A stretch of DNA of 59,585 bases from Bacillota bacterium. Lineage in GTDB: Bacteria > Bacillota > Sulfobacillia > JAJZYS01 > JAJYTV01. Made by a program: the position numbers and the translations under genes. The notes beneath the pieces were generated by a model that ran no database searches, had not been told where the DNA came from, and saw only the letters and a program-made list of their open reading frames with translations. The DNA is taken from positions 1 to 59,585 of the forward strand of contig JAJZAT010000020.1 of assembly GCA_021799275.1 (NCBI GenBank), read 5' to 3'. Below are positions 4,498 through 58,706 of the stretch, one piece after another (the stretch's first letter is position 1; each line of letters opens with the position of its first letter).

Positions 4498-4628
4498 ACC
4501 CCATTCCCCCTCACGTTAGCAGCGGCACCCCTTGATCGAACATCACGAGGTCACAAAGTCGCAGCTCTGCTCTGCTCCCGAGGACCGTAAAGGAAGATGC
4601 CGTGCACTCCCAGAACTCAAGATTTTAG

Positions 4629-5948: not shown

Positions 5949-6152
5949 CAGACCCTCGGATGAGCCGGGGTCAGCTTCGAGCGCCACGCTCTTAACGCCT
6001 GCCTCACCGTACCGCGTATACTTGCTGTTAAGGTCCAAGTTCCCTCGGTCGCCCGCAGGCAGGACCAACGCGCCGAGTTCGCGCCGTCGGGAATGGGCCA
6101 AGGGCGCATGACGCGGGCTTACGGCCGCGTTCACGAACAGGGAAAGAAGGTG

Positions 6153-6272
6153 ATGGCCAATGCAGCATTGCGCCGGACGGGCAGCGGACCGTCAACACCG
6201 CCAGCAGGCCGTCGCCTTCCTCGTGCCGCAATGGCGCGGCATAACGCATGGAACATGGGCGCAGACGCGTGA
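6153..6272 (+). CDS. Possible 39-codon upstream ORF coupled to the DUF2127 gene
   Basis: ATG 6153 is preceded by GGAAAGAAGGTG and opens a 39-codon frame whose TGA overlaps the GTG start of the next gene as GTGA. It has no recognisable domain and is Arg/Ala rich. It may be a translated leader or coincidence. The gap before it (5949-6152) shows nothing recognisable. Confidence 0.3.
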   Translation: MANAALRRTGSGPSTPPAGRRLPRAAMARHNAWNMGADA

Positions 6273-6790
6273 GTGACGCTGGCAAGTCCACGCGATCGCG
6301 GCTTCACGGCATTAAGCTTTTGGGTCGCCCCCTGCCCCTGATGCTCATCATCGCGGAGAAGGCAATCGTAGCGGTCGTTCTTGCGGCGGCGGCCGTGGTA
6401 GCGTTCGTGGTGCGCGGCCGGGTGGTCGATCCGCTGCACCTGCTCTTCGCCGACGAACTCACGGAAGACCCGCACGACGTCTACCTCCACTGGGTGATAT
6501 CGCACGCCCCTCACCTGACCACATACGTTGGGCCATGGGTGGCAGTCGCTTTGGCCCTCTGGTGTCTGCTGTACGCCGTCGAGGGAATCGGTCTTTGGCG
6601 CGAGCGCACGTGGGCTGAGCTTCTCGTCATCGTGGAAACGGCCTCGTTCTTGCCGATCGAAATCTGGGACCTCGTCAAGAAGTTCCACCTGCTCAGCCTC
6701 GGCACCCTCATCGTCAACCTCGCGGTGCTGCTGTACGTGGTGTATTTCTACCGCCGCACTCATCCCAGACGCCATCCGACGAGTCCTTAG
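6269..6790 (+). CDS. DUF2127 family membrane protein
   Basis: About 173 residues with four predicted membrane helices: AIVAVVLAAAAVVAFVV, PWVAVALALWCLLYAVEGI, a short third segment ELLVIVETASFLP, and LIVNLAVLLYVVYFYRR at the C-terminus. The spacing and the EGIGLWRERTWAE segment match DUF2127, a family of unknown function. I prefer GTG 6269, which overlaps the upstream small frame as GTGA; ATG 6248 is an in-frame alternative with no clear ribosome site. Confidence 0.75.
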   Translation: MSDAGKSTRSRLHGIKLLGRPLPLMLIIAEKAIVAVVLAAAAVVAFVVRGRVVDPLHLLFADELTEDPHDVYLHWVISHAPHLTTYVGPWVAVALALWCLLYAVEGIGLWRERTWAELLVIVETASFLPIEIWDLVKKFHLLSLGTLIVNLAVLLYVVYFYRRTHPRRHPTSP

Positions 6791-6801
6791 AGTCCAACGG
6801 C

Positions 6802-6833
6802 AAGGGAGCGTCCCCAAGCGGCGACGCTCCCTT
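6802..6833 (+). terminator. Hairpin after the DUF2127 gene
   Basis: AAGGGAGCGTC (6802-6812) and GACGCTCCCTT (6823-6833) are perfect complements just after the stop codon. The U-tract is poor. Confidence 0.6.
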
Positions 6834-6913
6834 GTGGCGGGAATGGTACCGAACTGGCCTCACCGCTCGCGGAAAGGAATATGTATCTCCAGGCGGAAGT
6901 TTCCACCTAGAGA

Positions 6914-7186
6914 GTGCCTACGGGGCGGGTGCGCAAGATGTTCGTCGCGGCGACCGGCATGTTCTTGGCCGTGGTGGTGGCGCTCGAGTGGGGGCTTGTG
7001 AAGTTTCTGCGAGACGAGTTCTTCTACGAGCGCCGCCGCAAGGGCTTTCGCAACCGGCGGCTACATAGGGTTGGCCTTGTCTGCTGGGGCATCGCCAGCG
7101 TGGGCCTTGCCGTGGTCGGCCTCTTTCTCATCCGCGCCATCATCGTGCTCTCCTGGACGACGCCCATGCCCACGCTGGGCCACTGA
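6914..7186 (+). CDS. Small two-helix membrane protein, hypothetical
   Basis: About 90 residues. Hydrophobic segments FVAATGMFLAVVVALEWGLV and LVCWGIASVGLAVVGLFLIR flank a strongly basic loop (YERRRKGFRNRRLHR). No family is recognised. GTG 6914 is the longest start; ATG 6938 (MFVAATG) is also possible. No strong ribosome site is visible. The gap to the next gene (7187-7417) contains nothing recognisable. Confidence 0.5.
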   Translation: MPTGRVRKMFVAATGMFLAVVVALEWGLVKFLRDEFFYERRRKGFRNRRLHRVGLVCWGIASVGLAVVGLFLIRAIIVLSWTTPMPTLGH

Positions 7187-7417
7187 CCGTCCGGCCGTCG
7201 CCGCCAGCCGTGATTCCCGGCGCCGAGCGGACTTCTGCAAACGTGAACCGGGGCACCTCCCCGAGCAAACTAAAAGCCGCGCTGCCCATTGACAGCACGA
7301 CCACGCATGCGCGAATCTATAGTGGTTGGAACGCAGTCAACCCAATGATTAGACCTATCCAACTTGATTCTACACCGGGTGGCCTTCGGAAGTCAACCCA
7401 CTGAAGGAGGAGTTGTC

Positions 7418-9827: not shown

Positions 9828-9834
9828 GACCGCT

Positions 9835-22421: not shown

Positions 22422-23082
22422 GCCGTCGGCCCCGGGGAAGCATGCGCCCGGCCAAGATGTGGACTACGCCACGCCTAGGCTAGCGACGGCACGGGACACG
22501 GCTTCATGAAGAAGGAGAACGAAATCGCCGCCTACACGAGCGCGCCCTGCCCGCACATCGAACGAGCCCGACACCCAACGCCGGTCAAGTCGGCAGGCGA
22601 CGCCCAAGTCGCAACCATCGTCGACGCCGACTCGTCGAGTTCTCCATCGGTCGAAGTGCTCTTCCCGCGATCTGTTGTGCCGGGCCAACGTGCTCCTTCA
22701 GGTGGCTGCCCCTGGGTCGGGCATCAAGAGCGCGTTCCTGTCGGGGCGGAATGTGATATCTGGCAGAGCCGTGTCCGCCAAGCAAGCGGTTCCCTCCCCA
22801 GGCTCGACATTGCGCCGCAACCGAGCCCGCCCTGCGATAGCGCGGTGGGTTTTCAGGCTCGCCGCATCCGGCGACTTACCTATTGACCGCCGGTCAAGAG
22901 GTCCACCATGTGCGCCGGCTCCCTCTCTCGACGCGGTATGCATCCATCGTCGCGCAAGGGTAAGCCTCTCTCCACGCGCTGAACGCCTGCGGCCAACTCC
23001 TTGCTGCGCCAACGGACTTCTCAGTGGCGGACGGATCGGAGCCAGTAGCGTGACCACGGCGTACAGCGCTAGCTTCCAAAGT
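22422..23082. other. 660-base gap without a recognisable gene
   Basis: Open frames on both strands have shadow-like composition (Pro/Arg/Ser rich) and no domain. The stretch contains one copy of the 27-bp inverted repeat described below and may be decayed accessory DNA. Confidence 0.5.
22877..22903. repeat. 27-bp imperfect inverted repeat, copy A
   Basis: Arms TACCTATTGAC (22877-22887) and GTCAAGAGGTC (22893-22903), spacer of 5 bases. The same 11-5-11 design recurs at 45.0, 46.0 and 58.7 kb. Confidence 0.6.
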
Positions 23083-23994
23083 CTACGGGCGCACTGGGCA
23101 CATCCTGATGCGCGGCGCGCTGGTGCTGAGGGACTCCGTCAGCGTCAGCCCATGGCGCGCGTACCACGCCAGCATCGTGCCCCATCCCGCGGCCAGTGGT
23201 ACATGTCCACCGCCAACAAAGACCAAGCGGACGTGCTTGTCGTGAACGCTCAGAACCTGGGCGGTCCACCGCGCGATCTCGGGCAGCACGGTCGTGTCCT
23301 GCGTTCCCGCGATGATGAGAACGGGCAATTGCACATCGTAGGTCTGGGTGGCCCATGTCGGGCTATTGAAGATCGCCGGGCTGAAGAGCACCGCGCCTCG
23401 GATCTGCTTGTCGCGCTCGGCGACGTAGACCGCGACCCCTCCGCCCATGGACTCGCCCAGAAGATACGTGGCGTCGGGCTTGATCCTGAGACCGCAGATC
23501 TGCCGCAGGGCAGCTATCCCGTTGAGCACGTCCGAAGCGTTTGGGCCAAGGGTGTTGACCGTGCCGTCGCTCGGACCGTAGCCGGCATAGTTGGGCAGGA
23601 AGACAATCGCGTTGTAGGGAGCCCACTGAGATGCCGAGACGGGCGAGTCCGCGACCCAGAGGGGGCCGGCATAGTCGTCGTGCCGGTACGGCATGGGGTA
23701 GAGCCAGCCACCATGAAGGAAGACGAGCAGAGGGAAAGGGCCCTTTCCCGACGGCACATCGATATACCCCTGCACCAGAATGCCTTTGCTCCAGTACTTG
23801 ATGCTGTACACGCTCACCCCCGGGATGCCGTACCTGGGCACGTCCACCGTGGACATGGAGGCAAGCGCGCCATCTTGGTGTGCCGAGACCGGGGCAGGGG
23901 CGATCGACGTTCGCCCGCCGGCGCCCCAAAGAGCTGCCGCCAAAAGGACCACGGAAGCCACAGCAGTGGCCACGTGCCGTGCACCTTCGCGCAT
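23083..23994 (-). CDS. Secreted alpha/beta hydrolase (prolyl oligopeptidase-like)
   Basis: 303 residues with an N-terminal signal or anchor (GARHVATAVASVVLLAAALW). The nucleophile elbow is GESMGGG near residue 180, the oxyanion region is LLVFLHGGW, the acid is in IIAGTQDTTV and the catalytic histidine is in GGGHVPLAAG. This is the fold of peptidase S9 or esterase-type hydrolases. ATG 23994 is chosen because it directly precedes the signal sequence and has a GAGGTG site. It ends 32 bases before the end of the S41-like gene's frame, in the same direction, so the two probably form an operon. Confidence 0.8.
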   Translation of the reverse strand: MREGARHVATAVASVVLLAAALWGAGGRTSIAPAPVSAHQDGALASMSTVDVPRYGIPGVSVYSIKYWSKGILVQGYIDVPSGKGPFPLLVFLHGGWLYPMPYRHDDYAGPLWVADSPVSASQWAPYNAIVFLPNYAGYGPSDGTVNTLGPNASDVLNGIAALRQICGLRIKPDATYLLGESMGGGVAVYVAERDKQIRGAVLFSPAIFNSPTWATQTYDVQLPVLIIAGTQDTTVLPEIARWTAQVLSVHDKHVRLVFVGGGHVPLAAGWGTMLAWYARHGLTLTESLSTSAPRIRMCPVRP

Positions 23995-24114
23995 CTCCGT
24001 CACCTCTAGCTCAAGTCGCTGCGCGATCATGCGCGTGCGATTACACCAACGCCTCGGCCGTCGGCTGCGTGCACCGACGCACCTGAACATGCCCCGGCGC
24101 GATCTGGACCGCAC

Positions 24115-45004: not shown

Positions 45005-45031
45005 GACCTCTTGACCTCCTGTCAAGGGGTC
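45005..45031. repeat. 27-bp imperfect inverted repeat, copy B
   Basis: Arms GACCTCTTGAC (45005-45015) and GTCAAGGGGTC (45021-45031), spacer CTCCT. It lies upstream of TacAT; copy D lies just downstream of the same pair. Confidence 0.7.
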
Positions 45032-45068
45032 AAAATACGTCCTAACACCAGAGTCCGCTCATGGTTCA

Positions 45069-45131
45069 CCTCTGCCCAGCCGCACATACTGGCAGAGGGA
45101 GGTTGACGTGTGTGGCAAAGCGCCGTACATT
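45069..45131 (+). promoter_or_regulatory. Promoter and inverted repeat upstream of TacAT
   Basis: TTGACG (45103-45108), a 17-base spacer and TACATT (45126-45131) make a good promoter. Immediately upstream, CCTCTGCC (45069-45076) and GGCAGAGG (45091-45098) form an inverted repeat that could be an autoregulatory operator. Confidence 0.5.
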
Positions 45132-45165
45132 AGAGAGGCGGAACGTCAGGAGAAGGAGGTGCAGC

Positions 45166-45447
45166 ATGTCCCCCGAAACGCTGAAGACAGAGCGTATCGA
45201 GGCCAGAGTGCGCCCATCTGACAAGGCGTTCATTGAGGACGCCGCGAACCACCTTGGCATCAGTGTAGCGGACTTCCTCGTATCCAGTGCTAAGGAACGC
45301 GCGGAGGAGGTCATACGGCGCAGGGATCAGATACAGCTAAGTCGTAGGGACCAACAGGCGTTTGTCGAGAGCTTGCTTCATCCCGCGGCGGCAGGCCCAG
45401 CACTAAAGGCAGCGGTGAAAGCGTATGACGAGTCCGTTGAGCACTAA
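45166..45447 (+). CDS. DUF1778/TacA-type antitoxin
   Basis: 93-residue ribbon-helix-helix antitoxin (ERIEARVRPSDKAFIEDAAN, LGISVADFLVSSAKERAEEV). It should neutralise the GNAT toxin and repress the operon. ATG 45166 follows AGAAGGAGG. It overlaps the toxin gene by 23 bases. Confidence 0.88.
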   Translation: MSPETLKTERIEARVRPSDKAFIEDAANHLGISVADFLVSSAKERAEEVIRRRDQIQLSRRDQQAFVESLLHPAAAGPALKAAVKAYDESVEH

Positions 45448-45979
45448 GGACTATCGCATTGAGCCACTTGGCGCCGCGCATAATCGCGGCGCCTTCTCGT
45501 GCGGGGACGACACCTTGGACCGATACCTGAGAGCTGTGGCGTCCCAGGACATGCGCCGAGGTACGACAGTGGTCCACGTACTTGTGCCGACGGCCAGGCC
45601 GCAGGTCGTCGCAGGGTTCTACACTCTTTCCGCCTCGAGTGTTGCTCTTGCAGATCTCCCTGAGTCCGTCCGTCGCCATCTGCCCAAGTATCCGACGGTC
45701 CCCGTTGCACTGATTGGCCGTCTCGCTACAGATCTCAGATTTCGCGGCAAGAAGCTTGGGACATTCCTACTGGTCGACGCACTGCGTCGGATCTGCCGCG
45801 TCAGCGACGAGTCTATGGGTGTCTTTGCAGTTATCGTAGACGCTAAGAACCCCGTAGCGGCTGACTTCTATCAGCACTTTGGCTTCTTGCCCTTCCCTGA
45901 CGGTCCACTCCGCCTGTTCATACCGACCGCCACGGTGAGACCTGCCTTCCGCGATCTTGATCAGGGCGTCAAGGATTGA
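45425..45979 (+). CDS. TacT-type GNAT toxin
   Basis: 184 residues. The family acetylates aminoacyl-tRNA and stops translation. SCGDDTLDRYLRAVASQDM at the N-terminus and RLATDLRFRGKKLGTFLLVD (acetyl-CoA loop) followed by FYQHFGFLPFPDGPLRLF are characteristic. The pair with the DUF1778 antitoxin is complete and looks intact. Copies B and D of the 27-bp repeat bracket it. Confidence 0.88.
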   Translation: MTSPLSTKDYRIEPLGAAHNRGAFSCGDDTLDRYLRAVASQDMRRGTTVVHVLVPTARPQVVAGFYTLSASSVALADLPESVRRHLPKYPTVPVALIGRLATDLRFRGKKLGTFLLVDALRRICRVSDESMGVFAVIVDAKNPVAADFYQHFGFLPFPDGPLRLFIPTATVRPAFRDLDQGVKD

Positions 45980-46004
45980 CCCAGTGACCACTAGTCACGA
46001 GGTC
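45978..46004. repeat. 27-bp imperfect inverted repeat, copy D
   Basis: Arms GACCCAGTGAC (45978-45988) and GTCACGAGGTC (45994-46004), spacer CACTA. It starts at the last codons of the TacT gene. Confidence 0.6.
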
Positions 46005-46198: not shown

Positions 46199-46489
46199 AT
46201 GCCGATTAAGGTCCACACGGCCACCATCGTGGGCTTCTTCTGGGACCACCCGGAAGCCGCCAAACCTCGCTATGAGCACAACGTATTCCACATGCTCGAC
46301 AGGCACGGTGTGACGACCGATGAAGTTGAGCACGTCCTCGAAGGTGTTCCAGTGCTTTTGGACGCGCAAGTGTCTGACGTCAGAAACCCTGTCTTCGGAG
46401 TTGTCGGCATCACCGCTGACGGAAGGATGCTGGAGGTCTGGGGGATCATCTTTCACCGCCGCCGTACCAAGGTATGTGGAGCACAATAA
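46199..46489 (+). CDS. BrnT-like toxin, possibly frameshifted at the C-terminus
   Basis: 96 residues as read. RYEHNVFHMLDRHGVTTDEV and VFGVVGITADGRMLEVWGII resemble the BrnT ribonuclease fold. The expected C-terminal part (WSTITAMDADGTAQARYFKE) is found in another frame just downstream; one extra base near 46461-46470 would join them. ATG 46199 is used. The next gene is a small protein with an RHH-like C-terminus, as in BrnTA modules. Confidence 0.55.
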   Translation: MPIKVHTATIVGFFWDHPEAAKPRYEHNVFHMLDRHGVTTDEVEHVLEGVPVLLDAQVSDVRNPVFGVVGITADGRMLEVWGIIFHRRRTKVCGAQ

Positions 46490-46549
46490 CAGCCATGGAC
46501 GCCGACGGGACAGCACAGGCGCGTTACTTCAAAGAAAGGGGACGACGTA

Positions 46550-46801
46550 GTGGAGGCGGACCGTACCTTCGCGGAGTTGTTGAGTCTCATTGAAAACCAT
46601 CGTCAAGATTGGCTGGAGCACGCACCCATCGCCGAGCATGTTAGGGTGGAACGCCGAACGGCGAGCTTGACCGTTCGGTTGTCCAAGGAGGAAGACACGG
46701 CTCTGGACGCCGCGGCGAAGGGTATCGGGATTGCGAAGTCCACATTACTTCGGGTCATCATACGGCATTACCTGGGGCTCGGCAGTCCGGCGGCGAAGTA
46801 G
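46550..46801 (+). CDS. Small RHH-type putative antitoxin
   Basis: 83 residues with GTG start. The C-terminal VRLSKEEDTALDAAAKGIGI and AKSTLLRVIIRHYLG resemble a ribbon-helix-helix domain. Toxin-then-antitoxin order fits BrnT/BrnA. The N-terminal half is not recognised. Confidence 0.6.
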   Translation: MEADRTFAELLSLIENHRQDWLEHAPIAEHVRVERRTASLTVRLSKEEDTALDAAAKGIGIAKSTLLRVIIRHYLGLGSPAAK

Positions 46802-47109
46802 CCTCCAGAGTCGCACCTCGCCGCCGGACTGTCACCGTCGGGAAGTCCTTTGCCACTCTTATCACAGGCTCGAAGAGAAGCAAGTCCCGCCGGTCGGGTA
46901 CCCATGTCAAGTCTGGTAGCGCCTAGAGGAACCAAGCAGCGGTGAAACCTAATTGTTCTGGCGACTCCTGTCGACGCTCATCGAGGAGCGCACCATGTGA
47001 TCTGCGAAAAGCGCACCACGTCCTGAGGTGAACGAGGGGCACATCGGGTTCCATTCGGCTCCTGGTACGCTGAGGTTGCACAGCCAAAGCGTGGTCAGGA
47101 GGGAAGGAG

Positions 47110-47367
47110 ATGCTCGACGTGCCCGATATCCAGTCTATCCGGGTTTTGCACCAGCGTGGACATTCCGAGCGGGCAATTGCCCGGATTCTGCGGATCAACC
47201 GCCGCACCGTGCGGCGGTACCTGGCGGAAGAGGTTATCGAGCCGGAACGGCGGATGCACCTGAAGGAACCGCGGCCGTCGCCGAAGATGGATCCCTGGAA
47301 AGGCGTCGTGGCCGAGTGGGTGGCGGCCGTTCACGCGTGGCCTTCCCGGACAGCCGCCGCCGGATAA
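47110..47367 (+). pseudogene. IS21-type IstA transposase fragment
   Basis: The first 75 or so residues are an IstA N-terminus: VPDIQSIRVLHQRGHSERAI, then a helix-turn-helix (ARILRINRRTVRRYLAEE) and PSPKMDPWKGVVAEWVAA. The frame then runs off into unrelated sequence and stops; the rest of istA and istB is absent. The upstream gap (46802-47109) probably contains the element's left end but no gene. Confidence 0.8.
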
Positions 47368-47479
47368 GGCGTCCACGCGGCGGCTCCCATGGAGCTACAG
47401 AATTGCCGCGTCCCTAGCGTAGTGGCCCCAACCGGGACAGCGGCAACAGCGCATGCGAACGTGAAGGCGTTGCAACACC

Positions 47480-48903: not shown

Positions 48904-49198
48904 ATGCAGGCGTCACAATCTCAACGACTCGCAGCTTCACACCGAAAGGCACTCATCCATCGGTGGGCTCTCGCACTTGGATGATCGGCAGCTTTTCCAG
49001 TTCATCGTCAGGGACCATGACCATGCGAACGCCCCACCCCTCCTGGTCAAGTCCGACCGTATTGTGTTCAACATCAAGGGCAACGCCTATCGTTTGGTAA
49101 TGTCCGTCGACTCTGAACTCGCTATCGTCTGGATAAAGTGGATCGGAACTCACCAGGACTACGATCGCATCAATGTCAAGGAGGTCGAACATGAGTGA
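48904..49198 (+). pseudogene. higB: HigB-type mRNA interferase, N-terminus out of frame
   Basis: The C-terminal part is a clear HigB toxin: DRIVFNIKGNAYRLVMSVDS, then IVWIKWIGTHQDYDRINV. The matching N-terminal helix (QRLAASHRKALIHRWALAL) lies just upstream in another frame. Removing one T at about 48977-48978 gives a normal-length protein starting at ATG 48904. As it stands, only an N-truncated form from TTG 48977 could be made. It overlaps higA by 8 bases. Confidence 0.65.
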
Positions 49199-49633
49199 CG
49201 AGGTAAGGCCGATTAGGACGCCGGCAGACTACGAGAAATCTCTCACGGAAGTCGAGCGACTTTGGGGCTCAAAGGCTGGCACCCCCGATGGAGATCGTCT
49301 GGATGTTCTCGTCACACTTATTGAGCAGTATGAGGCCGAGCACTTTCCCATCGACAGCCCGGATCCTATCGAGGCATAGAATTCAGAATGGAACAGCAGG
49401 GGCTTACACGAAGAGACCTTGAGTCTCTGATTGGAACTCGCAGTCGAGTTGCGGAGGTTCTGAATCGGCGCCGTAGTTTATCCGCGCGGATGATCCGAAG
49501 ACTTCACGATGGCCTAGGCATTCCAGCCAAGATCCTGATCCGTCCATCCTTGCCTGCCGCAAAGAGCGACTCATTTTGTCGCAGCGAAAAGCGGGGTGCT
49601 CATCCAACCTCAAAACATGCCGACCACGCCTAG
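49191..49633 (+). pseudogene. higA: HigA antitoxin split by a one-base frameshift
   Basis: The first frame (ATG 49191, AAGGAGG site) encodes MSDEVRPIRTPADYEKSLTE and ends DSPDPIEA with a TAG. The second frame begins at once with the HTH domain (MEQQGLTRRDLESLIGTRSR, VAEVLNRRRSLSARMIRRL). One added A at 49376-49378 gives DPIEAIEFRMEQQ, the normal HigA sequence. With the HigB defect, the locus is probably dead, or both are sequence errors. Confidence 0.75.
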
Positions 49634-49770
49634 GTGTAAGAGGCGCTTGCGGCGTCGAATCCAGCCAGGACGCAGGTTTCTCAAGTCAAGTCCCGCTGTC
49701 TCCTCGGTCTGAGGTGCTGAGTTCGGTGGTGAGCGCTCCGTCGCGACCTTCGAGTGGACATGTAACGTGT

Positions 49771-49812
49771 CGAAAGCCCGACAAAGAGGGCTTAAGCCTC
49801 CTGCGGCTTTCG
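49771..49812 (-). terminator. Hairpin downstream of the MFS gene
   Basis: CGAAAGCC (49771-49778) and GGCTTTCG (49805-49812) with a long loop, downstream of the minus-strand MFS stop. No clear U-tract. Confidence 0.35.
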
Positions 49813-49883
49813 ACTTCGACCCGTTGACTTGTAATCAATAGGTCCAGAGGGGTTAGGTACGCGCATCCTGATGGTCCTCGATC

Positions 49884-51143
49884 TCACGCGTCGATCGCCG
49901 CTCGTTTTGCCTCCGCACCAGAGGACAGACGGCGAATGTCTCTGGTCGCAAAGCCCAAGGCCACACAGCCGCCCATCAGGCCACCCGCCATCGCGAAGCA
50001 GCCCCGCGCGCCGATCGCGTCGCCCAGCATGCCAATGCCACCGTAGCTCAGCGGGATGGTAACCGTGTTGAGCATGCCACCAAGACCGGTGATCCGCCCG
50101 CGCATGCTGTCTGGAACCATGCTCTGCAAGAGTGTCGCAGTAGGGAGGTTCGCGGCCACCAGGCCCAGCCCGAGGACAAAGTTCCCGGCGTACGCCACGA
50201 AGACGGCGTGCGCCGTCGAGATGATGCCCAAGGCGAGCCCCTCGAGTCCGAGCCCCGCAAGGAACAGCGGTCCGACCCGCTCCGACGGCAGCGACCCGAG
50301 AACGAGTCCGCCTACGATCACGCCAAGGCCTATGCTCGCGTCGAAGATGCCAAGGGCCTGCGCACCAGCGTGGAGCGCGTCGCGGATCAGCATCGGAGGG
50401 AGCACGTTGGAAGGACCGATCGCGATGTTGCTCAAGGCGCCGATGATGATCAGGACCAGAAGTGCCGTGTGCCTGCGCAGCCACTGCCACGCCACCTGCA
50501 GGTCACGGGCCACGGAGGATCCAGAGTCACTGGCTCTTTCCGCAGACCGCGCCCTGACGGGCATGAGAAGGACCACCGACACGACGAATGTGAGCGCGTC
50601 GAAGGCGATCGCAAGGGGAGCGCCGGCCAGCGCCACCAGCGCGCCTCCCGCCGTCGACCCCACCACCCGCGCGATCTGTCGGGACACGGTGAACATGGCG
50701 TTGCCGCTGAACAGGTCCTCGGAGTCGACCAGATCCGGGAAGAGTCCTGCGCGTGCCGGACTGTACGCCAGATCGACCACCGACATGAGAACGGTCACGA
50801 GGTAGATCTCCCAAAGCGCGATGTGGTGTGCGAACACGAACAGTGCCAACGCACCGGTCAGCAGCGCCTGGATGCCGCTCGCCGCCTGCATGAGGCGCTT
50901 GCGATCCACACGGTCGGCAAGCACCCCGAGGAGCGGCCCGACTGCGACCTGAGGCACAAACGCGGCGATCAGCACGAGCCCGGTGTCCAAACCCGAGCCG
51001 GTGCGCGAGAAGACGTACCACATGATGGCGACGTCGTAGAACATGTCTCCGAAGTACGAGGAGGTCTCCCCGATCCAGAGGTATCGCACCTGGCGGTTCC
51101 TCTGCAGAAGCTGGAACGGGAACCGGAAGCCCGCCTTGGCCAT
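49884..51143 (-). CDS. MFS transporter, DHA3-type
   Basis: 419 residues with about twelve helices. YLWIGETSSYFGDMFYDVAI in helix 1, ADRVDRKRLMQAASGIQALL, and PDSMRGRITGLGGMLNT are typical of enterobactin-exporter or MefA-like DHA3 proteins. ATG 51143 is chosen with a GAGGGA site. It lies downstream of an ArsR-type regulator on the same strand, probably its controller. Confidence 0.85.
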   Translation of the reverse strand: MAKAGFRFPFQLLQRNRQVRYLWIGETSSYFGDMFYDVAIMWYVFSRTGSGLDTGLVLIAAFVPQVAVGPLLGVLADRVDRKRLMQAASGIQALLTGALALFVFAHHIALWEIYLVTVLMSVVDLAYSPARAGLFPDLVDSEDLFSGNAMFTVSRQIARVVGSTAGGALVALAGAPLAIAFDALTFVVSVVLLMPVRARSAERASDSGSSVARDLQVAWQWLRRHTALLVLIIIGALSNIAIGPSNVLPPMLIRDALHAGAQALGIFDASIGLGVIVGGLVLGSLPSERVGPLFLAGLGLEGLALGIISTAHAVFVAYAGNFVLGLGLVAANLPTATLLQSMVPDSMRGRITGLGGMLNTVTIPLSYGGIGMLGDAIGARGCFAMAGGLMGGCVALGFATRDIRRLSSGAEAKRAAIDA

Positions 51144-51219
51144 CACGTGTCCCTCGCTCTCTTTTGATATGTATCTCGCATTAGACTTCACCGTTATCTA
51201 ACAGCCAGGCACAAAGAAA

Positions 51220-52248
51220 TCACCCCCCGAGTTCCTGGGCGAGCACCGCCAGGAGCTGGCGCATGCGCTTCACGTCAAGCCTGTAGTAGACGCGGTTCTC
51301 CTCCCGTTCTCCCACAACAAGTCCGACCGACGCTAGATGCCCCAGGTGGTGCGACACTGTGGAGCTCGAGAGGCCCAGCCGCTCGGCGAGCTCGTAGCCG
51401 AACTTCTCGCCGCCATGAAGCGCCTTGATGATCTTGATCCTCGTCTCGTCGGCAAGCACCTTGAGGAGGGGGACAATCTCGACCTGGCCCGCCCAGAGGC
51501 CCGCCATGTGGATGCCGTACACAGTGATGAAGAAGTTCCCATCGCCATCATCCGCGGAGAGGCTGTCGACATGGTAGAAGACGGAGGGCGCCAGCACGAC
51601 CCTCGTCTCGGCGTCCCTCAAGTAAAGGTAGGGGAACTCCCGCTTGAGATCCTGGCGGCTGCGCACCTTGGCCCGCAGTTCCGCGATGTTCGCGGCCTGG
51701 ATCTGCGAGAGCCGGTCCCACTCCGCGCTGAAGTACAAGGCATTGCACTGTTCCACCAACGTGATGAATTGCTGCTTTGTCCCTTCACGTTCGAGGTAAA
51801 GATAGGCGAGCTTCCACTTCTCTTTCGGGGGGAGCGCGGCACGCGCAATGTAGGCGCGCACCCTTTCGGTGTCCTCCACGGCGGGGAAATCTGCCGGACT
51901 GAAGCCGGTCTGCAGAAAGGACTCGAACAGCGCATGGGGCGAGGCGGCCCTAAGCGCCGTCAGGAATGCGTCGACGGACCGCCACGCGTCGGTCTTCCAA
52001 GCGAACCCAACCATGGAGAGCCCGATGAAGCTCTCGAAGTCGAAGAAGACCTCAAGACCTTGCTTGACGTCGTCAGGCAGGGTGCCACGGACCCGGTCCA
52101 CCCAAAGGTCCAGGTCAAACTCCGCAAGTCCCGCGAAATCGCCCTTCGTCAGCCGCTCGTGGGACTGCAGGCGGAACATGGAAGCCAGGAGCTCGAAGAC
52201 AGGCGATTGAACCGCAAAGACGCCGGGCAGAAGCTCCTCCACGGCCAC
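51220..52248 (-). CDS. ArsR-type regulator with long N-terminal domain
   Basis: 342 residues. The C-terminal 90 residues are a winged helix (LKVLADETRIKIIKALHGGE, LAERLGLSSSTVSHHLGHLA, EENRVYYRLD). The N-terminal 240 residues are an alpha-rich effector domain of the kind seen in DUF5937-like ArsR regulators. GTG 52248 follows AGGAAG. A palindrome-like GATACATATC at about 51166-51175, between this gene and the MFS gene, is a candidate operator. Confidence 0.75.
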   Translation of the reverse strand: MAVEELLPGVFAVQSPVFELLASMFRLQSHERLTKGDFAGLAEFDLDLWVDRVRGTLPDDVKQGLEVFFDFESFIGLSMVGFAWKTDAWRSVDAFLTALRAASPHALFESFLQTGFSPADFPAVEDTERVRAYIARAALPPKEKWKLAYLYLEREGTKQQFITLVEQCNALYFSAEWDRLSQIQAANIAELRAKVRSRQDLKREFPYLYLRDAETRVVLAPSVFYHVDSLSADDGDGNFFITVYGIHMAGLWAGQVEIVPLLKVLADETRIKIIKALHGGEKFGYELAERLGLSSSTVSHHLGHLASVGLVVGEREENRVYYRLDVKRMRQLLAVLAQELGG

Positions 52249-52276
52249 ACTTCCTTCCTGGCGTCACTACGCGAAC

Positions 52277-52305
52277 AGAGTACCTGGTTGTTTTACGTCC
52301 GTCAA
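52277..52305 (-). promoter_or_regulatory. Promoter of the ArsR-type regulator
   Basis: Minus-strand TTGACG (52305-52300), a 17-base spacer and TACTCT (52282-52277). Confidence 0.55.
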
Positions 52306-52534
52306 CTCATACATACGATAGCTGTCGAGTCTCCTCGCCTCGCCTTTGGGTTGTGGAGTCCGCCCCTGTCACAGGAAGCTCGGTCGCAGGCGGGCGACAG
52401 CCTGCTGCAGGACCTGTGGCTGTCCTCCTTGTGACACAAAAGGGGCTGGATATAAACTGGAAGTTGTCTGGGGGGGCCTGGCTCGTCCCGCGCGGCAGAC
52501 CGCTCTCACATCTTGTCCTCTGGAGGTGAGCCCC

Positions 52535-54775
52535 CTGCTCAAAGCGGCCGTCGGTATAGCCCTGGCGTCCCTATTGTTAGCCATCGAGCCCGCTTCCTTC
52601 GCCTCTGCTTCTGACAGCAGCGGTACGGCAACCCTGACCACTCTGTATTCTGACGCCACGCCGAGCCCCACGCCGACCATCCCGCAGAATCAGGCGCTGG
52701 CCAAGTTGGCCGCCCTCTTCCCCCAGGTGAACCAAATGGGCAGCCCGCAAGTTCAGACCTCGTCGGATCCCTTCTCCGGCAATCCTCTTTGGATGTTCCA
52801 GTGGCCCAGCCAGGCCGCGCCGGGGGCCTTCGCCTCCGTCGACGGCGATACGGGGCAGCTGGTCATGGCGACATTTCCGCCTGCGGGCAAGGCCAGGGCC
52901 AATCCATTGACCTTGACGGCGGCGCAGTCTCTGGCCACGGCGTTCCTCGCCAAGGCGACCGGCGGTACGGCCAACCTTATGCCGATGGCGCCGGCAGTCA
53001 CGCTGCAGGGCGCAGGCGGCTCGCTGCACGTCGCCTACCAGCTGGGTTGGCACGAGACCGTAGAGGGCCTCCCGGTGCTCGACGCGGGCGTGTCGGTGCA
53101 AATCGACGCGCTGACCGGCTCGGTCACGAGCTTCAACGACCAGATCATCCCGAACGTGACCTTCCCTCCCGCGTCGCAGACGCTTCCCGCCGACCGCGCC
53201 GCAGCCGCTGAGTTTGCCGGTGAGGGTCTGGTTCTCGCCTACGACGCCGCAGGATCCGCATCGATCGTCACGAGCGGCGGTGGTCCCACGACCTTGCGTC
53301 CCGTGTGGGAGCTAGCACCCACGAACGGCGCATGGGACGCGACCACCGGCGGCACGGCTGGAACGGGTGAACCCATCATAGGCACGGAGTTGCCGCAGGT
53401 GCCGAGTGTGGCGGCCGCTCCGGCTGAACTGACGGCCACGCCCGAATCCCAGCAAGGCGCGCCGATCTCGGAGGATCAGGCGCGCAGCGAAGCAGAACAG
53501 ATCGTTCAAGAGGCCGGTTTCACCGGCTGGACCGCAACGGGGTCAGGTACCGGAGAGATCACGGGCCAAGGGGTGACGGAGCAGTTGTGGGACATCCAGT
53601 TCCAGCCGCCGGGGCAGTCGCAGTCGGGAGCACCGGGGCTGAGCGTGGAGATCGCACAGAATGGCGGGCAGCTTAGTCAGCTGTTCCTGCCAGAGCCCGC
53701 ACAGTCCTCAGCGGCTTCGGGATCGACTGAGGTCAACGATGCCCAGCAGGCGGCGAGCGTGGCCGCGGCCTTTGTCAAGGCGGTCGATCCCCAGGAGCTT
53801 GCGGACACCGTCGCGATGCCGGCTACAAAGTCTGTGACCCAGCCCGGGAACGATTGGCAGGTGCGGTTCGTGCGGCTCTATGACGGGATCCCGGTCGCCC
53901 AGGACTCGGTCGTCGTCAACGTGGACCCGCAAGGGAGGATCGTGAACTATTACCGCAACTGGCACACCCTCACGGCCAGCGGCGGCACCATGTCCCTACT
54001 CACGCAGGCCGCCGCCGAGAAGGCCCTTGCGGCCTTGCCCGTCCAGCTCGCTTACGAGCTTCAGTGGACGCCATCCAGCCCGCCAAGTGGAACACCCCAG
54101 TTGCAGGCACCGGAGCTCGTCTATGTTTTCCGTAATCCGCGCAATGAGCTTGGGCAAGTGCAGTTCGACGCAGTAAGCGGGCAGGTTTACGGTGCCGATG
54201 GCCTGGCGTTTGACTCCCCCAGCGGACCATCCGCGTCGATCGCTGGCAGTTGGGCTGAGACGCCCCTCTGGGCCTTCTCTCAGGCGGGCCTCCTGCCTGC
54301 CGGAGTTGGCCCGAACGATACGGTGACGCTCGGACCGGCTATCCACGCGCTACTGCAGATCCTGCCGACGCCAACGTTTGGTGGCTCCTCGGCGAACGTG
54401 CCGCCACCCCCGGGGCCGTACGGCATGGACATCGCCAGAGCTGTCGCAGCTGACATCCTCCCACCGAGCGCAGCTAACCAAGCGAGCCAAGCGAGCCAAG
54501 CGAGCCAAACAGTGACGCGGGAGGAGTTGGCCGACTGGACGGTGCGGGCGCTTGGCTATGGCGCGCTTATCGGCATGTCGAACAAGGTGGACGTGAAGTT
54601 TGCCGATGCCTCGCAGATCGCTCCCACGTACGTGAACGCCGTAGGCATCGCCCAGGGGCTCGGCATCGTGACGGGCGACACCGGTGACCGCTTCGAGCCC
54701 CAGCAGCCCGTCACTTGGGCGCAGTTCGCAACAATCCTGATGCGTGCGGCGACGCGGGCGTCCGCAAGCCCCTGA
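52535..54775 (+). CDS. Exported YcdB/PepSY-like protein with S-layer-homology-like C-terminus
   Basis: About 746 residues. Signal peptide: AAVGIALASLLLAIEPASFA. Two large repeats follow with PepSY/YcdB-type units (ANPLTLTAAQSLATAFLAKA, LDAGVSVQIDALTGSVTSFN; later DGIPVAQDSVVVNVDPQGRI, VNYYRNWHTL). The last 75 residues (VTREELADWTVRALGY, FEPQQPVTWAQFATILMRAA) resemble SLH domains that bind the cell wall. The start is uncertain: CTG 52535 has GGAGGTGA 5 bases upstream, while GTG 52526 overlaps that site. Function unknown. Confidence 0.75.
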   Translation: MLKAAVGIALASLLLAIEPASFASASDSSGTATLTTLYSDATPSPTPTIPQNQALAKLAALFPQVNQMGSPQVQTSSDPFSGNPLWMFQWPSQAAPGAFASVDGDTGQLVMATFPPAGKARANPLTLTAAQSLATAFLAKATGGTANLMPMAPAVTLQGAGGSLHVAYQLGWHETVEGLPVLDAGVSVQIDALTGSVTSFNDQIIPNVTFPPASQTLPADRAAAAEFAGEGLVLAYDAAGSASIVTSGGGPTTLRPVWELAPTNGAWDATTGGTAGTGEPIIGTELPQVPSVAAAPAELTATPESQQGAPISEDQARSEAEQIVQEAGFTGWTATGSGTGEITGQGVTEQLWDIQFQPPGQSQSGAPGLSVEIAQNGGQLSQLFLPEPAQSSAASGSTEVNDAQQAASVAAAFVKAVDPQELADTVAMPATKSVTQPGNDWQVRFVRLYDGIPVAQDSVVVNVDPQGRIVNYYRNWHTLTASGGTMSLLTQAAAEKALAALPVQLAYELQWTPSSPPSGTPQLQAPELVYVFRNPRNELGQVQFDAVSGQVYGADGLAFDSPSGPSASIAGSWAETPLWAFSQAGLLPAGVGPNDTVTLGPAIHALLQILPTPTFGGSSANVPPPPGPYGMDIARAVAADILPPSAANQASQASQASQTVTREELADWTVRALGYGALIGMSNKVDVKFADASQIAPTYVNAVGIAQGLGIVTGDTGDRFEPQQPVTWAQFATILMRAATRASASP
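54479..54507 (+). repeat. Short tandem repeat inside the YcdB-like gene
   Basis: Three copies of the 9-base unit CAAGCGAGC encode a QAS-QAS-QAS linker just before the SLH-like region. Copy number may vary between strains. Confidence 0.8.
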
Positions 54776-54971
54776 GAGGCTTCGGTGATCGCATGGTGAT
54801 TTTATGCCCAGTGGGCCGCTCATCCTGAACCATCACTGCGAACGGCCGCTGTTCGGCCCCGCCAGGTCATTTCCCGTCGTCGGTCGGCGGCCGCCATCAG
54901 CCCCACCTGCTTTACACTTTCCGAGGCGCCACGACCGATTGACACGCTCGAAGGGTGCGGCTAGACTCACA

Positions 54972-55057
54972 GTGCCTAGGGGAGCGGGAGCTGAGAGTGC
55001 GCCGCACGGCGCAGACCCTACCAACCTGAACTGGGTAATGCCAGCGGAGGGAAGGCA
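54972..55057 (+). promoter_or_regulatory. TPP riboswitch (THI box)
   Basis: The conserved elements are present: GGAGCTGAGAGTGCG-type 5' core (GCTGAGA at about 54990), ACCCTACCAACCTGA, then CTGGGTAATGCCAGCG and GGAGGGAA. The outer helix TGCCT/AGGCA encloses it. TPP binding should promote termination ahead of ykoE. Confidence 0.93.
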
Positions 55058-55083
55058 GAGCGGAACGTAGGTGTGCGAACGCC

Positions 55084-55118
55084 ACGCGTCCGACTCCTAG
55101 GGAGTCGGACGCGTTTTC
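55084..55118 (+). terminator. Riboswitch terminator
   Basis: ACGCGTCCGACTCC (55084-55097), a TAG loop, GGAGTCGGACGCGT (55101-55114), then TTTT: a 14-bp perfect stem between the THI box and ykoE. Confidence 0.9.
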
Positions 55119-55165
55119 CGTCGCCGCCGCCGCGCCCCAGGCCATCGCGCGAGGAGGGACCGGGT

Positions 55166-55735
55166 GTGCAGTGGAAGCTCAGGGACATCGTGGTCGCGTC
55201 GGTGCTGGCGGTGGTGGCGGGCGCCATCTACCTCGGCTGGGACATCATCTTCAAGTTCGTGCCGTCGTCCGTCAACCCGGTCCTGCTCGCGCTGTTCAAC
55301 GGACTTTGGTGGATCGCGGCCGGCATCGTTCCCTACATCGTGCGCCGTCCCGGCGCGGCCTTGCTGGCGGAAGCGGTCGGCGGCCTCATCGAGTTTCTGC
55401 TCGGCAGTCCTTACGGCATTCAGGCGTTCACCATTGGCATCGCGCAGGGCCTGGGTGTCGAGGTGGGGTTCGCGCTCGGGGGCTGGAAGCGCTACGGCTG
55501 GGGCTTCATGCTGCTCGCGACCGCGCTCGGCGGGATCGGGAACTACGTCTACTCCTACTTCTATTACGGCGTGAACGACTACTCGGCGGCTTTGCAGACC
55601 GGGTACCTGGTCGCCTCGATGGTCTCCGGCGCGATCCTCGCGGGGGCGCTTTCGAAGCTGGTCGGCGACGCTTTACGTCGCACTGGCGTGCTGCGCAATT
55701 TCGCGATCGCGAAGGAGCAGGCTCACGCCTCCTGA
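55166..55735 (+). CDS. ykoE: Thiamine-precursor ECF transporter S component, YkoE-like
   Basis: 189-residue membrane protein, about six helices (DIVVASVLAVVAGAIYLGWD, then LFNGLWWIAAGIVPYIV, GVNDYSAALQTGYLVASMVS). The family binds hydroxymethylpyrimidine or thiamine. GTG 55166 follows GAGGAGG. Its position after a TPP riboswitch and before the energising module supports the call. Confidence 0.88.
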   Translation: MQWKLRDIVVASVLAVVAGAIYLGWDIIFKFVPSSVNPVLLALFNGLWWIAAGIVPYIVRRPGAALLAEAVGGLIEFLLGSPYGIQAFTIGIAQGLGVEVGFALGGWKRYGWGFMLLATALGGIGNYVYSYFYYGVNDYSAALQTGYLVASMVSGAILAGALSKLVGDALRRTGVLRNFAIAKEQAHAS

Positions 55736-55736
55736 A

Positions 55737-58100
55737 GTGGCGGTCGACGTGCCGGCCGACCATCCAGGGGAGTTGCTGCTGCGCCTGAGGGACGTGGCGT
55801 TGTCCTATGGCGATCGCCCGCCCGTGATCGAAGGGGCCGACTTCGAGCTGCGGCGGGGCGACGCGGTGCTCCTCGTGGGCCCGAGCGGCTGCGGCAAGTC
55901 GACGCTGGCCCAGATCGCCGTAGGCCTCATACCGGGCGTCGTGGAGGCGGAGGTGCGCGGCGAGGTCTGGCGTTCGCCGCGCCTCCTCCGCCCGGGTGCG
56001 GTCGGCTATGTGTTCCAGGACCCGGCGGCGCAGCTCTGCCAGCTCACCGTCGGGCGGGAGGTCGCGTTCGGCCCCGAGAACCTGCGCGTGCCGACAGAGG
56101 CGATGCCTGAGCGCATTGCGCAGGCGCTTCGGGATGTCGGCCTCGCGGTCGATCCGGAGGAGTTCGACGGGGTGCTCTCGGGGGGCATGCAGCAGAAGCT
56201 CGCCATCGCCAGCGCGCTCGCGCAGCGCCCGGAACTTCTGGTGCTCGACGAGCCGACGGCTAACCTCGACCCGCGGGCGACCGCGGAGATCTTTCGCCTG
56301 ATCGCGCGGCTGTGCGAGATGGGCCACACGCTGCTCGTCATCGAGCACAAGTTCGCCGGACTGATGGGCAGCCTCGACTACGTGGTGGCGCTGGGCCCGG
56401 GAGGCAGGGAGGTATTCGCGGGGCCCCTCCCTGCCACCGTCGAGGAGCGCTTCGGGCAGATGCGGGAACTCGGCGTCGTGCCCGACTGGGCCAGCTCGCC
56501 CGGAGCGCAGCCGTCTCCTCCGGCCAGACCGGTCGCCGACTCGGCTACGACCGTGACGTTTAGCGCCGAGGGACTGGGCTACACCTACGTGGCGGCGGCC
56601 CTGCGCCGGAGACTCCGCCGGCGCGGTCAGGAGCCGCGCTTCGCCTTTCGTGACCTGAGCTTCGCGATCCCGCGCGGGAGCCTGACCGCGATCGTCGGTC
56701 CGAACGGCTCCGGCAAGTCGACGCTGCTGCGCGTCCTGGCGGGGTTCGAAAGGCCCACCGAGGGGACATTGGAGCGCCCGACCGGTCGGGGCGAGATCGC
56801 CTTCGCTTTCCAGAACCCCGAGCACCAGTTCGTCTACGAATCGGTGGCGGAGGAACTCGCGAACCGCTACCTAGGCGACGGACAGGTGCCGGACGACGTG
56901 CTCGAGCTGCTCCGCGAATTCGGCCTCGCTGGCCACGAGCGGCAAAGTCCGTTCGCGCTCAGCCAGGGGCAGAAGCGCCGTCTCTCGGTCGCGGCGATGC
57001 TTGTGCAGCAGCACGAGGCCTACCTGCTCGACGAGCCGACCTTCGGCCAGGACGCGCGCACGCAGGAGGCGATCATGCAGCGTCTTCTGGCCCTGCAGGC
57101 CTCCGGGCGGACGGTTGTGGTGACGACGCACGACATGGACCTGGTGCGGCGCTATGCGACGCAGGTGGTGGCGCTCTCGGAGGGCCGCCTGCTCTTTTCC
57201 GGATCACCTCAGGAACTCGTCGAGCGATCAGATATCCTGCGCGCCGCCAACCTCGTCGCGGACCAGGAAGAACCCCCCGCCGCGGAGGACGCACCGGATG
57301 TATCGCCCGGTGGCGTCACCGCGAGATTCGTGCGCATCGCGCCGGCCCAGGCGCTCTCTCCCATCGGTCGACTCCATCCGGCGATGCAGCTCCTCGCTAC
57401 CCTGCTGGCGATGGTTGTGCTGGCCTTCACGGTGAACGTGCGCCAGGGTGCCTACCTGACGCTGCTGCCGCTCTTGCTGCTCGTCCTAGGCGCAAGACTC
57501 ACCCTACGCCAAGTGGCCACGCGGATGTTGCCGTTCCTTATCTTTTTCGCCATGTACACGTGGACGCTCACGGCATACGCCCACGTGCCGCCCGGCGCGC
57601 CGGCCGTGCACTTCCTGTTCTTCCGTTTGAGCCTCCCAGGCCTCTACGCGGGACTCGCGCTCGGCATGCGGATGCTGGCCACCGTGACCTTCGCCGTCCT
57701 CTTCGTCTCCACGGCTGACGTCACGGATCTGCTGTCCAGTCTGGCGCAGAACTTCCGGGTCCCACCGAAGTTCGCATACGGCACGCTGGCCGGGCTGCGC
57801 TTCTTCCCCCTCTTCGAGGAGGAATGGAATCGGCTGCGGCGAGCGCGGGCCCTGCGCCAGCGGGACGGCCGCTTCCGCGTCACTCGCGTCGTGACCTACG
57901 CGCTGCCGCTGCTCGGGCAGGCGATCCGCACCGGTGAACGGGTCGCGATCGCCATGCAGGCGCGGGGCTTCACGGGAGACGCCATGGAGCGTGCAAAGGC
58001 ACGCAGCTACTATCGGCGCCTGCGTGTCCGCCTGGTGGATGTCGCCTACGTCGTCATGCTCGTATCCCTGAGCGTGTTCCTGCTCTGGCTGGGCCGCTGA
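55737..58100 (+). CDS. Fused double ATPase plus EcfT transmembrane protein (YkoD-YkoC fusion)
   Basis: 787-residue three-part protein. ATPase 1: GPSGCGKST near 47, LSGGMQQKLA near 147, LLVLDEPTANLDP. ATPase 2: GPNGSGKST near 320, LSQGQKRRLS near 407, YLLDEPTFGQD. From about 530 on there is an EcfT/CbiQ-like membrane domain with several helices and the coupling motifs AIAMQARGF and LRRARALRQR. In Bacillus these are separate ykoD and ykoC genes. With ykoE it makes a complete energised HMP/thiamine importer. Confidence 0.9.
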   Translation: MAVDVPADHPGELLLRLRDVALSYGDRPPVIEGADFELRRGDAVLLVGPSGCGKSTLAQIAVGLIPGVVEAEVRGEVWRSPRLLRPGAVGYVFQDPAAQLCQLTVGREVAFGPENLRVPTEAMPERIAQALRDVGLAVDPEEFDGVLSGGMQQKLAIASALAQRPELLVLDEPTANLDPRATAEIFRLIARLCEMGHTLLVIEHKFAGLMGSLDYVVALGPGGREVFAGPLPATVEERFGQMRELGVVPDWASSPGAQPSPPARPVADSATTVTFSAEGLGYTYVAAALRRRLRRRGQEPRFAFRDLSFAIPRGSLTAIVGPNGSGKSTLLRVLAGFERPTEGTLERPTGRGEIAFAFQNPEHQFVYESVAEELANRYLGDGQVPDDVLELLREFGLAGHERQSPFALSQGQKRRLSVAAMLVQQHEAYLLDEPTFGQDARTQEAIMQRLLALQASGRTVVVTTHDMDLVRRYATQVVALSEGRLLFSGSPQELVERSDILRAANLVADQEEPPAAEDAPDVSPGGVTARFVRIAPAQALSPIGRLHPAMQLLATLLAMVVLAFTVNVRQGAYLTLLPLLLLVLGARLTLRQVATRMLPFLIFFAMYTWTLTAYAHVPPGAPAVHFLFFRLSLPGLYAGLALGMRMLATVTFAVLFVSTADVTDLLSSLAQNFRVPPKFAYGTLAGLRFFPLFEEEWNRLRRARALRQRDGRFRVTRVVTYALPLLGQAIRTGERVAIAMQARGFTGDAMERAKARSYYRRLRVRLVDVAYVVMLVSLSVFLLWLGR

Positions 58101-58216
58101 GCGCACGGCATGGAGAGAGAGAGGACATGGGGAACCCTTCCCACATTCGGCTCGGCCCTGACGCGATGTTCAGACCGCTCCGTCCTTACCGAGGCGAGCG
58201 AACCAGCATTGCACTC

Positions 58217-58279
58217 CTAGGACGGCGCCTCATCGTCAGCCTTGCCGGTAGCCGTGGTATGGAGCTCGAAGGTCGCCAT
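58217..58279 (-). pseudogene. Possible VapC-type toxin stub (20 codons)
   Basis: ATG 58279 overlaps the antitoxin stop as TAATG, the usual vapBC junction. It reads MATFELHTTATGKADDEAPS then TAG. The first ten residues resemble a PIN-domain start (M-A-x-F-x-L-D-T-S-A), but the catalytic Asp is His. The rest of the toxin is absent. The gap 58101-58216 contains nothing else. Confidence 0.35.
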
Positions 58280-58536
58280 TAGTCGCCCCTATCCCACCCG
58301 GCTCGCACCGACCGAACCCATGCGTCGGTTTCTTCCTCGCTTCGCCAATGCGGCGGAAGGTCGTTCGTAAGCATTCCCTTGCCTGACCGCACGGCCTGCA
58401 ATTGCCGAAGTCGGTGCACGTACTCTCTTAGTGCCTCAGTGACAATAGCCCCTCGCGTCTCATCAGCTCGAAGATCGTCAATCTCCTTCACGACTTCAGC
58501 TGGGACACGAACGTGAATCATCACGCTCTTTGCCAT
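58279..58536 (-). CDS. VapB/CopG-like RHH antitoxin
   Basis: 85 residues: VMIHVRVPAEVVKEIDDLRA then GAIVTEALREYVHRLRQLQA is a ribbon-helix-helix domain, followed by an acidic tail (EEETDAWVRSVRAGWDRG) that would bind a toxin. ATG 58536. Its toxin seems to be lost. Confidence 0.75.
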   Translation of the reverse strand: MAKSVMIHVRVPAEVVKEIDDLRADETRGAIVTEALREYVHRLRQLQAVRSGKGMLTNDLPPHWRSEEETDAWVRSVRAGWDRGD

Positions 58537-58679
58537 AGCATTACCGTTCTCATTGTGCGATGGCATTGTGCTCCACAGCGCGCTGCGCCTCACATGTGCG
58601 GTCCTCTGGTCGGTAGATCTGACTCACGGCCAGAAGGTGTGCGATCCAGCAGTGATGAGCCTCTTCCGCCACGGTTCCG

Positions 58680-58706
58680 AACCTCCTGATCACCAGTCAA
58701 GGGGTC
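58680..58706. repeat. 27-bp imperfect inverted repeat, copy C
   Basis: Arms AACCTCCTGAT (58680-58690) and GTCAAGGGGTC (58696-58706), spacer CACCA. It lies in the 390-base gap upstream of the VapB-like gene, which has no other recognised feature. Confidence 0.65.

Follow-up and report, generated by a model that had tools for sequence, protein, structure and literature searches.

As far as we know, defence and toxin–antitoxin (TA) genes move constantly, yet little is known of how defence islands are built. In chromosomal integrons, many of the cassettes hold TA genes. In Acinetobacter, pdif sites combine constant arms with variable spacers, and rearrangements take place between sites whose spacers are identical or nearly so (PMC13141974); in addition, chromosomal islands of dif modules with TA genes are known in this genus (PMC12907356). 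Integrative islands of Islander class A, finally, use attachment sites centred on the tRNA anticodon (PMC4383910).

The 59,585-bp stretch of DNA analysed here (the window) comes from an uncultivated Bacillota family and carries members of a 27-bp inverted-repeat family, in which two 10-bp arms flank a variable 7-bp core, GACCTCTTGA-N7-TCAAGAGGTC. As in the dif/pdif modules of Acinetobacter, the arms of these short inverted repeats are constant and their spacers variable, TA and other accessory modules lie between them, an island has several sites, identical or near-identical spacers meet at some of the junctions and, as we infer here, a recombinase acts in trans. By contrast, they measure 27 bp in a 10-7-10 layout and not 28 bp in an 11-6-11 layout, they have the arms GACCTCTTGA/TCAAGAGGTC in place of XerC/XerD arms, and many of them carry two identical arms, so that no C/D polarity is visible. 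Unlike the Acinetobacter modules, they have IetAS, BREX, type III restriction-modification and Cas I-C genes beside them. Their behaviour is dif-module-like, yet they do not fit the sequence definition of dif/pdif. With chromosomal integrons and their attC sites they share small, presumably mobile cassettes, palindromic recombination sites and some covariation within sites; they depart from integrons in having symmetric 27-bp sites, no adjoining integron integrase, genes in both orientations and cassettes dispersed among chromosomal operons. An integron was rejected, because among the sites examined only the C7 locus of the same genome has an integrase next to it, and the proteins there are phage-type.

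In an alignment of 30 sites the arms are constant, reading ACC...TGA on the left and TCA...GGT on the right, with inner ends TTGA/TCAA. Positions 11 and 17 are paired in just 22 of the 30, and the 10-7-10 architecture therefore fits the family better than the 11-5-11 one given in the initial annotation, whose shared inverted-repeat design is otherwise confirmed. That annotation had also remarked that the arms do not follow the dif consensus, which agrees with TTGA/TCAA standing where dif has ATAA/TTAT. Allowing up to three mismatches, the pattern was found at 14 places in the whole genome and its reversed control at none; among the 14, C7:24725 is a tRNA-Val gene, and some of the three-mismatch places are probably chance. 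Similarly, 406 kb of reversed sequence contained no match, at a cut-off of 11 bits, to a profile (PSSM) built from 25 sites. A loose 12-base pattern was dropped, since its output was mostly noise.

The genome (3.14 Mb in 61 contigs) contains about nine good sites, spread over three contigs: six lie in the window and the others at C51:25325, C51:31830 and C57:4223. The four sites initially reported were all recovered, and we refer to them as A to D. Specifically, site A lies at 22877–22903 (TACCTATTGA-CCGCCGG-TCAAGAGGTC), site B at 45005–45031 (GACCTCTTGA-CCTCCTG-TCAAGGGGTC), site C at 45978–46004 (GACCCAGTGA-CCACTAG-TCACGAGGTC) and site D at 58680–58706 (AACCTCCTGA-TCACCAG-TCAAGGGGTC). A fifth site occupies 49818–49844 (on the reverse complement, GACCTATTGA-TTACAAG-TCAACGGGTC), and a weak, possibly decayed one 4526–4552 (CACCCCTTGA-TCGAACA-TCACGAGGTC). 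A covariance model whose training set included most of these sites gave E-values per genome of 2.6e-5 (45005), 4.5e-4 (49818), 4.8e-4 (58680), 5.5e-4 (22877), 2.2e-3 (45978) and 0.2 (4526). Some of the intervals are long and hold ordinary operons, namely 22.1 kb from site A to site B and 8.9 kb from 49818 to 58680, so that an interval between sites need not be a cassette. The GC skew shows no switch in the window, which therefore does not look like a replication terminus.

Two alternatives had been raised at the outset, transposon (MITE-like) ends and binding sites of one regulator, and both are left unsupported. At the loci compared, the DNA between the sites is different each time and the 27-bp site is the only repeat, which does not support MITE or transposon ends. 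That the sites serve to bind one regulator would suit their palindromic form, intergenic position and conserved arms, but about nine copies per 3.1 Mb, clustered on three contigs, are not the hundreds in front of ordinary orthologous genes that a regulator would suggest; few of the genes beside the sites are orthologous from one genome to another, and one flank switches at the site. We therefore regard this explanation as highly improbable.

A TacAT pair fills the 946-bp interval from site B to site C, and its identity as TacA–TacT, proposed from the sequence at the start, is upheld. The antitoxin gene tacA (45166–45447, + strand; PF08681, 8e-22) lies in a reading frame open from 45061, with a likely ATG start at 45166, and is followed by tacT (45425–45979, + strand), which encodes a GNAT acetyltransferase toxin with homologues 57–63% identical in G007:C38 and G008:C328 (loci are given as genome and contig, G000 being the genome of the window). 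The stop codon of tacT (45977–45979) shares its final two bases with site C. The initial annotation was right that sites flank the pair, though they are the second and third sites and not those that it had lettered B and D. The cores of sites B and C agree at four of seven positions at best; that of site B recurs in different contexts at G005:C50:3050 and G007:C66:707.

Among the relatives, TacAT homologues are present in G008:C328, where a site follows the homology at a distance of 78 bp downstream, and in G007:C38, where there is no site. In G001 and G005 the left neighbour gene is present, and site B and TacAT are both absent. In G004:C112 the left flank, a decayed site B and the tacA promoter are followed by an IS1182-like transposase that replaces tacA; this transposase (locus L143, 3100–5357) begins at the expected tacA start, the TacAT promoter and ribosome-binding region being kept upstream. 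No clean empty-site counterpart of the TacAT cassette was present in the relatives compared (G001, G004 and G005), and its mobility is plausible by analogy with the other cassettes.

A putative second TA pair (46199–46801, + strand) consists of a ribbon-helix-helix open reading frame, for which PF01402 fell below the cut-off, and another without a Pfam match, which we take to be BrnT-like from our own reading. It is adjoined by an IS21-type transposase fragment (47095–47376), part of which is 100% identical to G004:C179 and is a recent transfer or a repeat.

The association of the sites with TA and defence genes extends across the family. A genome-wide search of the family gave 72 PIN genes, of which we counted 13 within 1 kb of a site, against 0.28 expected, and 15 of 48 sites have a PIN gene. 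This unbiased, genome-wide count is the one on which we rely, because the set of near-site genes was partly picked by conservation between loci; in that set, the genes within 1.6 kb include 14 PIN, 10 Phd/YefM and five HEPN genes as well as nucleotidyltransferases, none of which is among the most frequent families more than 5 kb away. A nearly exact fit between two sites was seen for IetAS, VapBC, a methyltransferase and TacAT. At locus L059, for instance, the IetAS genes (5176–8768) lie between sites at 5133–5159 and 8777–8803, and VapBC then extends up to a site at 9834. PADLOC assigned the paired AAA and subtilase genes of L059 and L056 to IetAS; beside other sites it detected BrxL/BrxD, type III restriction-modification and type I-C cas genes.

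In the window, an AbiEii nucleotidyltransferase gene (5298–5945, + strand; PF08843, 1e-16) lies 0.75 kb from the weak site at 4526, and its homologue in G008:C328 ends about 21 bp from a site. Beside site D there is a decayed VapBC remnant (58537–58668, − strand), which has its homologues in the VapC-side sequences of G002:C176 and G004:C31; a copy beside a decayed VapB-like locus had been pointed out before, under the letter C, and it is in fact the fourth site. Genes of an HNH_2 endonuclease family also recur by sites of different genomes (L068, in G007:C26, 3853–7192; L058, 4279–5250; L059, 9966–10271), and the homology between L058 and L059 in these genes begins exactly at the site.

We then compared loci of different genomes by BLASTN and recorded where the alignments end. 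Alignment ends fell inside 10 of 52 sites, against 1.5 expected for uniform random positions and 2.3 for local positions shifted by 60–1000 bp (2000 permutations each; p ≤ 0.0005). Related genomes thus switch sequence inside the sites, which favours the initial suggestion that they may be pdif-like recombination sites bounding TA cassettes. One such switch is that between G003:C77 and G004:C94, which are 99.9% identical from the site over at least 9.5 kb in one direction and unrelated in the other; the right arm is identical, the cores agree at six of seven positions (GAGGCAA and GAGGGAA) and the left arms differ. At site D the left flank is common to G000, G001 and G004, followed by three different right flanks, and the core is TCACCAG in all. 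The sites G000:C7:12250 and G001:C187:12072 have in common a HEPN-MNT module, 97% identical, that extends rightwards from the first bases of the site.

A further junction involves a HigB-like toxin gene and a HigA-like HTH antitoxin gene (48934–49633, + strand) that adjoin site 49818. This module (48934–49827) aligns at 85% with G002:C54, and the alignment stops inside the site in both; the flank beyond site 49818 has no homology with G002:C54. There, the next site outward lies 976 bp away and encloses a SAM methyltransferase gene, and its core, TTACAAG, is exactly that of window site 49818. Because of this match, the window looks like the HigBA arrangement without the methyltransferase cassette.

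Presence or absence of the DNA between two sites, a comparison envisaged in the initial annotation, was seen for a 6.5-kb block, though not in fully clean form; TacAT gave no clean case. In G000:C51 two sites enclose this block, and the syntenic G003:C42 has one site and lacks the block. On the left, conservation extends to 245 bp before the site, with a further difference of about 0.85 kb; on the right, the flanks are nearly identical, but just 35 bp remain past the site before the contig end. In a comparison set of one draft genome per species, this pair alone came close to a clean two-sided empty/occupied pair, none being found at sites A, B, C57 or C77/C94. Sites A, B and C77/C94 have no orthologous flanks on both sides in the genomes compared (at site A, the right-hand gene, 23083–24030, is conserved in congeners and the left flank is not), and the C57 site is present in G000 and G004 only, with the same flanks in both. 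Some sites lie close to the end of a contig, 35 bp from it in G000:C51 and 7 bp in G007:C32, and variants at the sites within a population may be the reason.

The cores themselves recur. Nine exact 7-mer core classes are common to at least two sites, most of them across unrelated contexts, and junction partners usually have the same core, as in the site D orthologues (TCACCAG) and the C7/C187 pair (ATGTGAG). The two sites that flank one cassette usually differ in their cores, and neighbouring sites are not clearly more similar than random pairs from the same genome (3.5 against 3.0 of seven positions); we therefore do not claim as a rule that flanking sites share a core.

These observations can be set against a passive role of the sites, that is, hairpins (terminators, REP-like or MITE-derived sequences) marking intergenic ends at which unrelated insertions gather. 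Intergenic inverted repeats would be expected in such a case, and the two arms do covary within a site (similarity 8.38 of 10, where chance would give 8.10; p=0.002), which might reflect a folded hairpin as in integrons or arms that co-evolve under one enzyme. On the other hand, no T-run follows any site in the window, the sites number about nine per genome and are concentrated at TA genes, breakpoints inside the 27 bp exceed those of the local shifted-position control, and the recurring cores would be left unexplained. We thus consider passive hairpins rather improbable.

Constant arms, a variable core, junction changes located in the core and recurring core classes lead us instead to read the sites as substrates of a trans-acting tyrosine recombinase, and dif-module-like core sites of such an enzyme, bordering TA and defence cassettes, are on present sequence evidence the probable explanation. 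The two 10-bp inverted arms would bind the recombinase, and strand exchange would take place in the 7-bp core. TA and defence genes would be carried as cassettes between sites, and recombination between sites with matching cores would lead to the gain, loss or exchange of a cassette, leaving a hybrid site at the junction. In the window, the TacAT pair (45005–46004) would represent one cassette, while 49818 and 58680 would bound others. Such recombination would be enzymatic, may be going on at present, and might involve cassette circles.

The origin of the sites may lie in tRNA genes. The profile also matches the anticodon arms of tRNA-Val(CAC), tRNA-Ala(GGC) and tRNA-Arg(ACG), and the geometry of arms and 7-base core is that of the anticodon stem-loop. 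At G001:C187:12072 the core ATGTGAG equals the tRNA-Val anticodon loop and the left flank is a decayed 3' half of tRNA-Val; G000:C7:12250 has the same core and lies 12.5 kb from an intact tRNA-Val, in the orientation expected for an inserted island. The stretch G000:C7:12250–24771 (L053, L054) has the appearance of a 12.5-kb island at tRNA-Val(CAC), with the HEPN-MNT module at its far end and type III restriction-modification genes just outside. This tRNA link is suggestive. In a narrower form of the recombinase explanation, the sites would be attachment sites of integrases that target the tRNA anticodon loop, made by integrase-bearing elements and then multiplied and diverged; the 7-bp crossover would fall in the loop, and the arms would derive from anticodon stem and variable loop. 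The geometry, the three tRNA genes, the C187 and C7 sites and the existence of a known class of anticodon-centred attP sites (PMC4383910) all speak for it; against it, a clear anticodon loop is seen in a single one of the 37 core classes (the other classes being judged by eye), nearly all sites stand without an adjoining integrase, and no integrase of this type common to the family was found. A further difference from tRNA-anticodon attachment sites is that those described here border small cassettes of genes as well as cassette islands. Since most cores are not anticodon loops, they must have diversified if a tRNA was the origin. We hold this form to be possible, short of an even chance.

As for the enzyme, the linked tyrosine recombinase that the initial annotation had looked to was missing: beside the sites examined no recombinase gene was found except near the C7 locus, and only two of the nine tyrosine-recombinase genes of the genome are on a site-bearing contig (C7), both encoding phage-type proteins. 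Of the tyrosine recombinases that occur throughout the family, only XerC and XerD look active, XerC being unseen in the 76%-complete G003. This fits another narrower form of the recombinase explanation, in which the host XerC/XerD would use the sites as lineage-specific dif-like (pdif-like) sites. The TA cassettes, variable spacers, spacer match at junctions and clustering in islands mirror the Acinetobacter dif modules, and a convincing canonical dif was found under the same pattern in just one of ten family genomes, the other nine giving none. That one genome also counts against it, as G002:C216:600–625 bears a normal-looking dif, GTCCGATAATAGATATTATGTTAAAT, and so do the arm ends unlike those of published dif/pdif, the core of seven and not six bases, and the many sites without C/D asymmetry. 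Use by XerC/XerD therefore seems possible to us, though less likely than not.

A dedicated shuffling system, neither Xer/dif nor integron, would go further: a single recombinase acting on fully symmetric 10-7-10 sites would assemble and exchange anti-phage and TA cassettes, with the 7-bp core as a compatibility code, a tRNA anticodon arm as ancestor and perhaps, in view of the covarying arms, folded hairpins as substrate. We judge this version unlikely.

A Xer-like protein of about 271 aa was also noted in nine of ten family genomes (G000:C5:113561–114001, L050, L258; L259–L266). Its first Arg is replaced by Ser/Thr and its His by Gln, the C-terminal tyrosine is absent, and most catalytic residues are lost; it is apparently a conserved, dead recombinase paralogue.

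The site family is restricted to this lineage. The covariance model found matches in all ten genomes of the GTDB family and, outside it, in four of 141 sampled genomes of the class, at one place each. An exact-pattern scan of all GTDB genomes recovered the family isolates DX1.bin73, DX1.bin42, YF1.bin87, SKS1.bin49 and DBS2-4.bin93, titled 'Bacillota bacterium', which we presume from the isolate codes to be mine-drainage assemblies; over all GTDB genomes and viral contigs it revealed no second clear cassette system. Searches of the open-access literature turned up no description of sites of this kind in Bacillota. Short sites with arms unrelated to dif mark the borders of chromosomal cassettes in an uncultivated Bacillota lineage. 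If the recombinase explanation is true, dif-module-like shuffling would not be peculiar to Acinetobacter, and the arms or cores of the sites could serve as border marks by which to locate complete defence cassettes, unknown ones among them. The sites further suggest how tRNA attachment sites could give rise to dispersed cassette sites.

Outside the family, the exact scan matched scattered hairpins and tRNA-linked sites. Specifically, at six loci of unrelated bacteria (L085, L096, L100, L120, L121 and L122), 10-7-10 palindromes lie beside tRNA-like T-arm sequence with the full tRNA absent; possibly, these are island attachment sites with a symmetrised anticodon arm.
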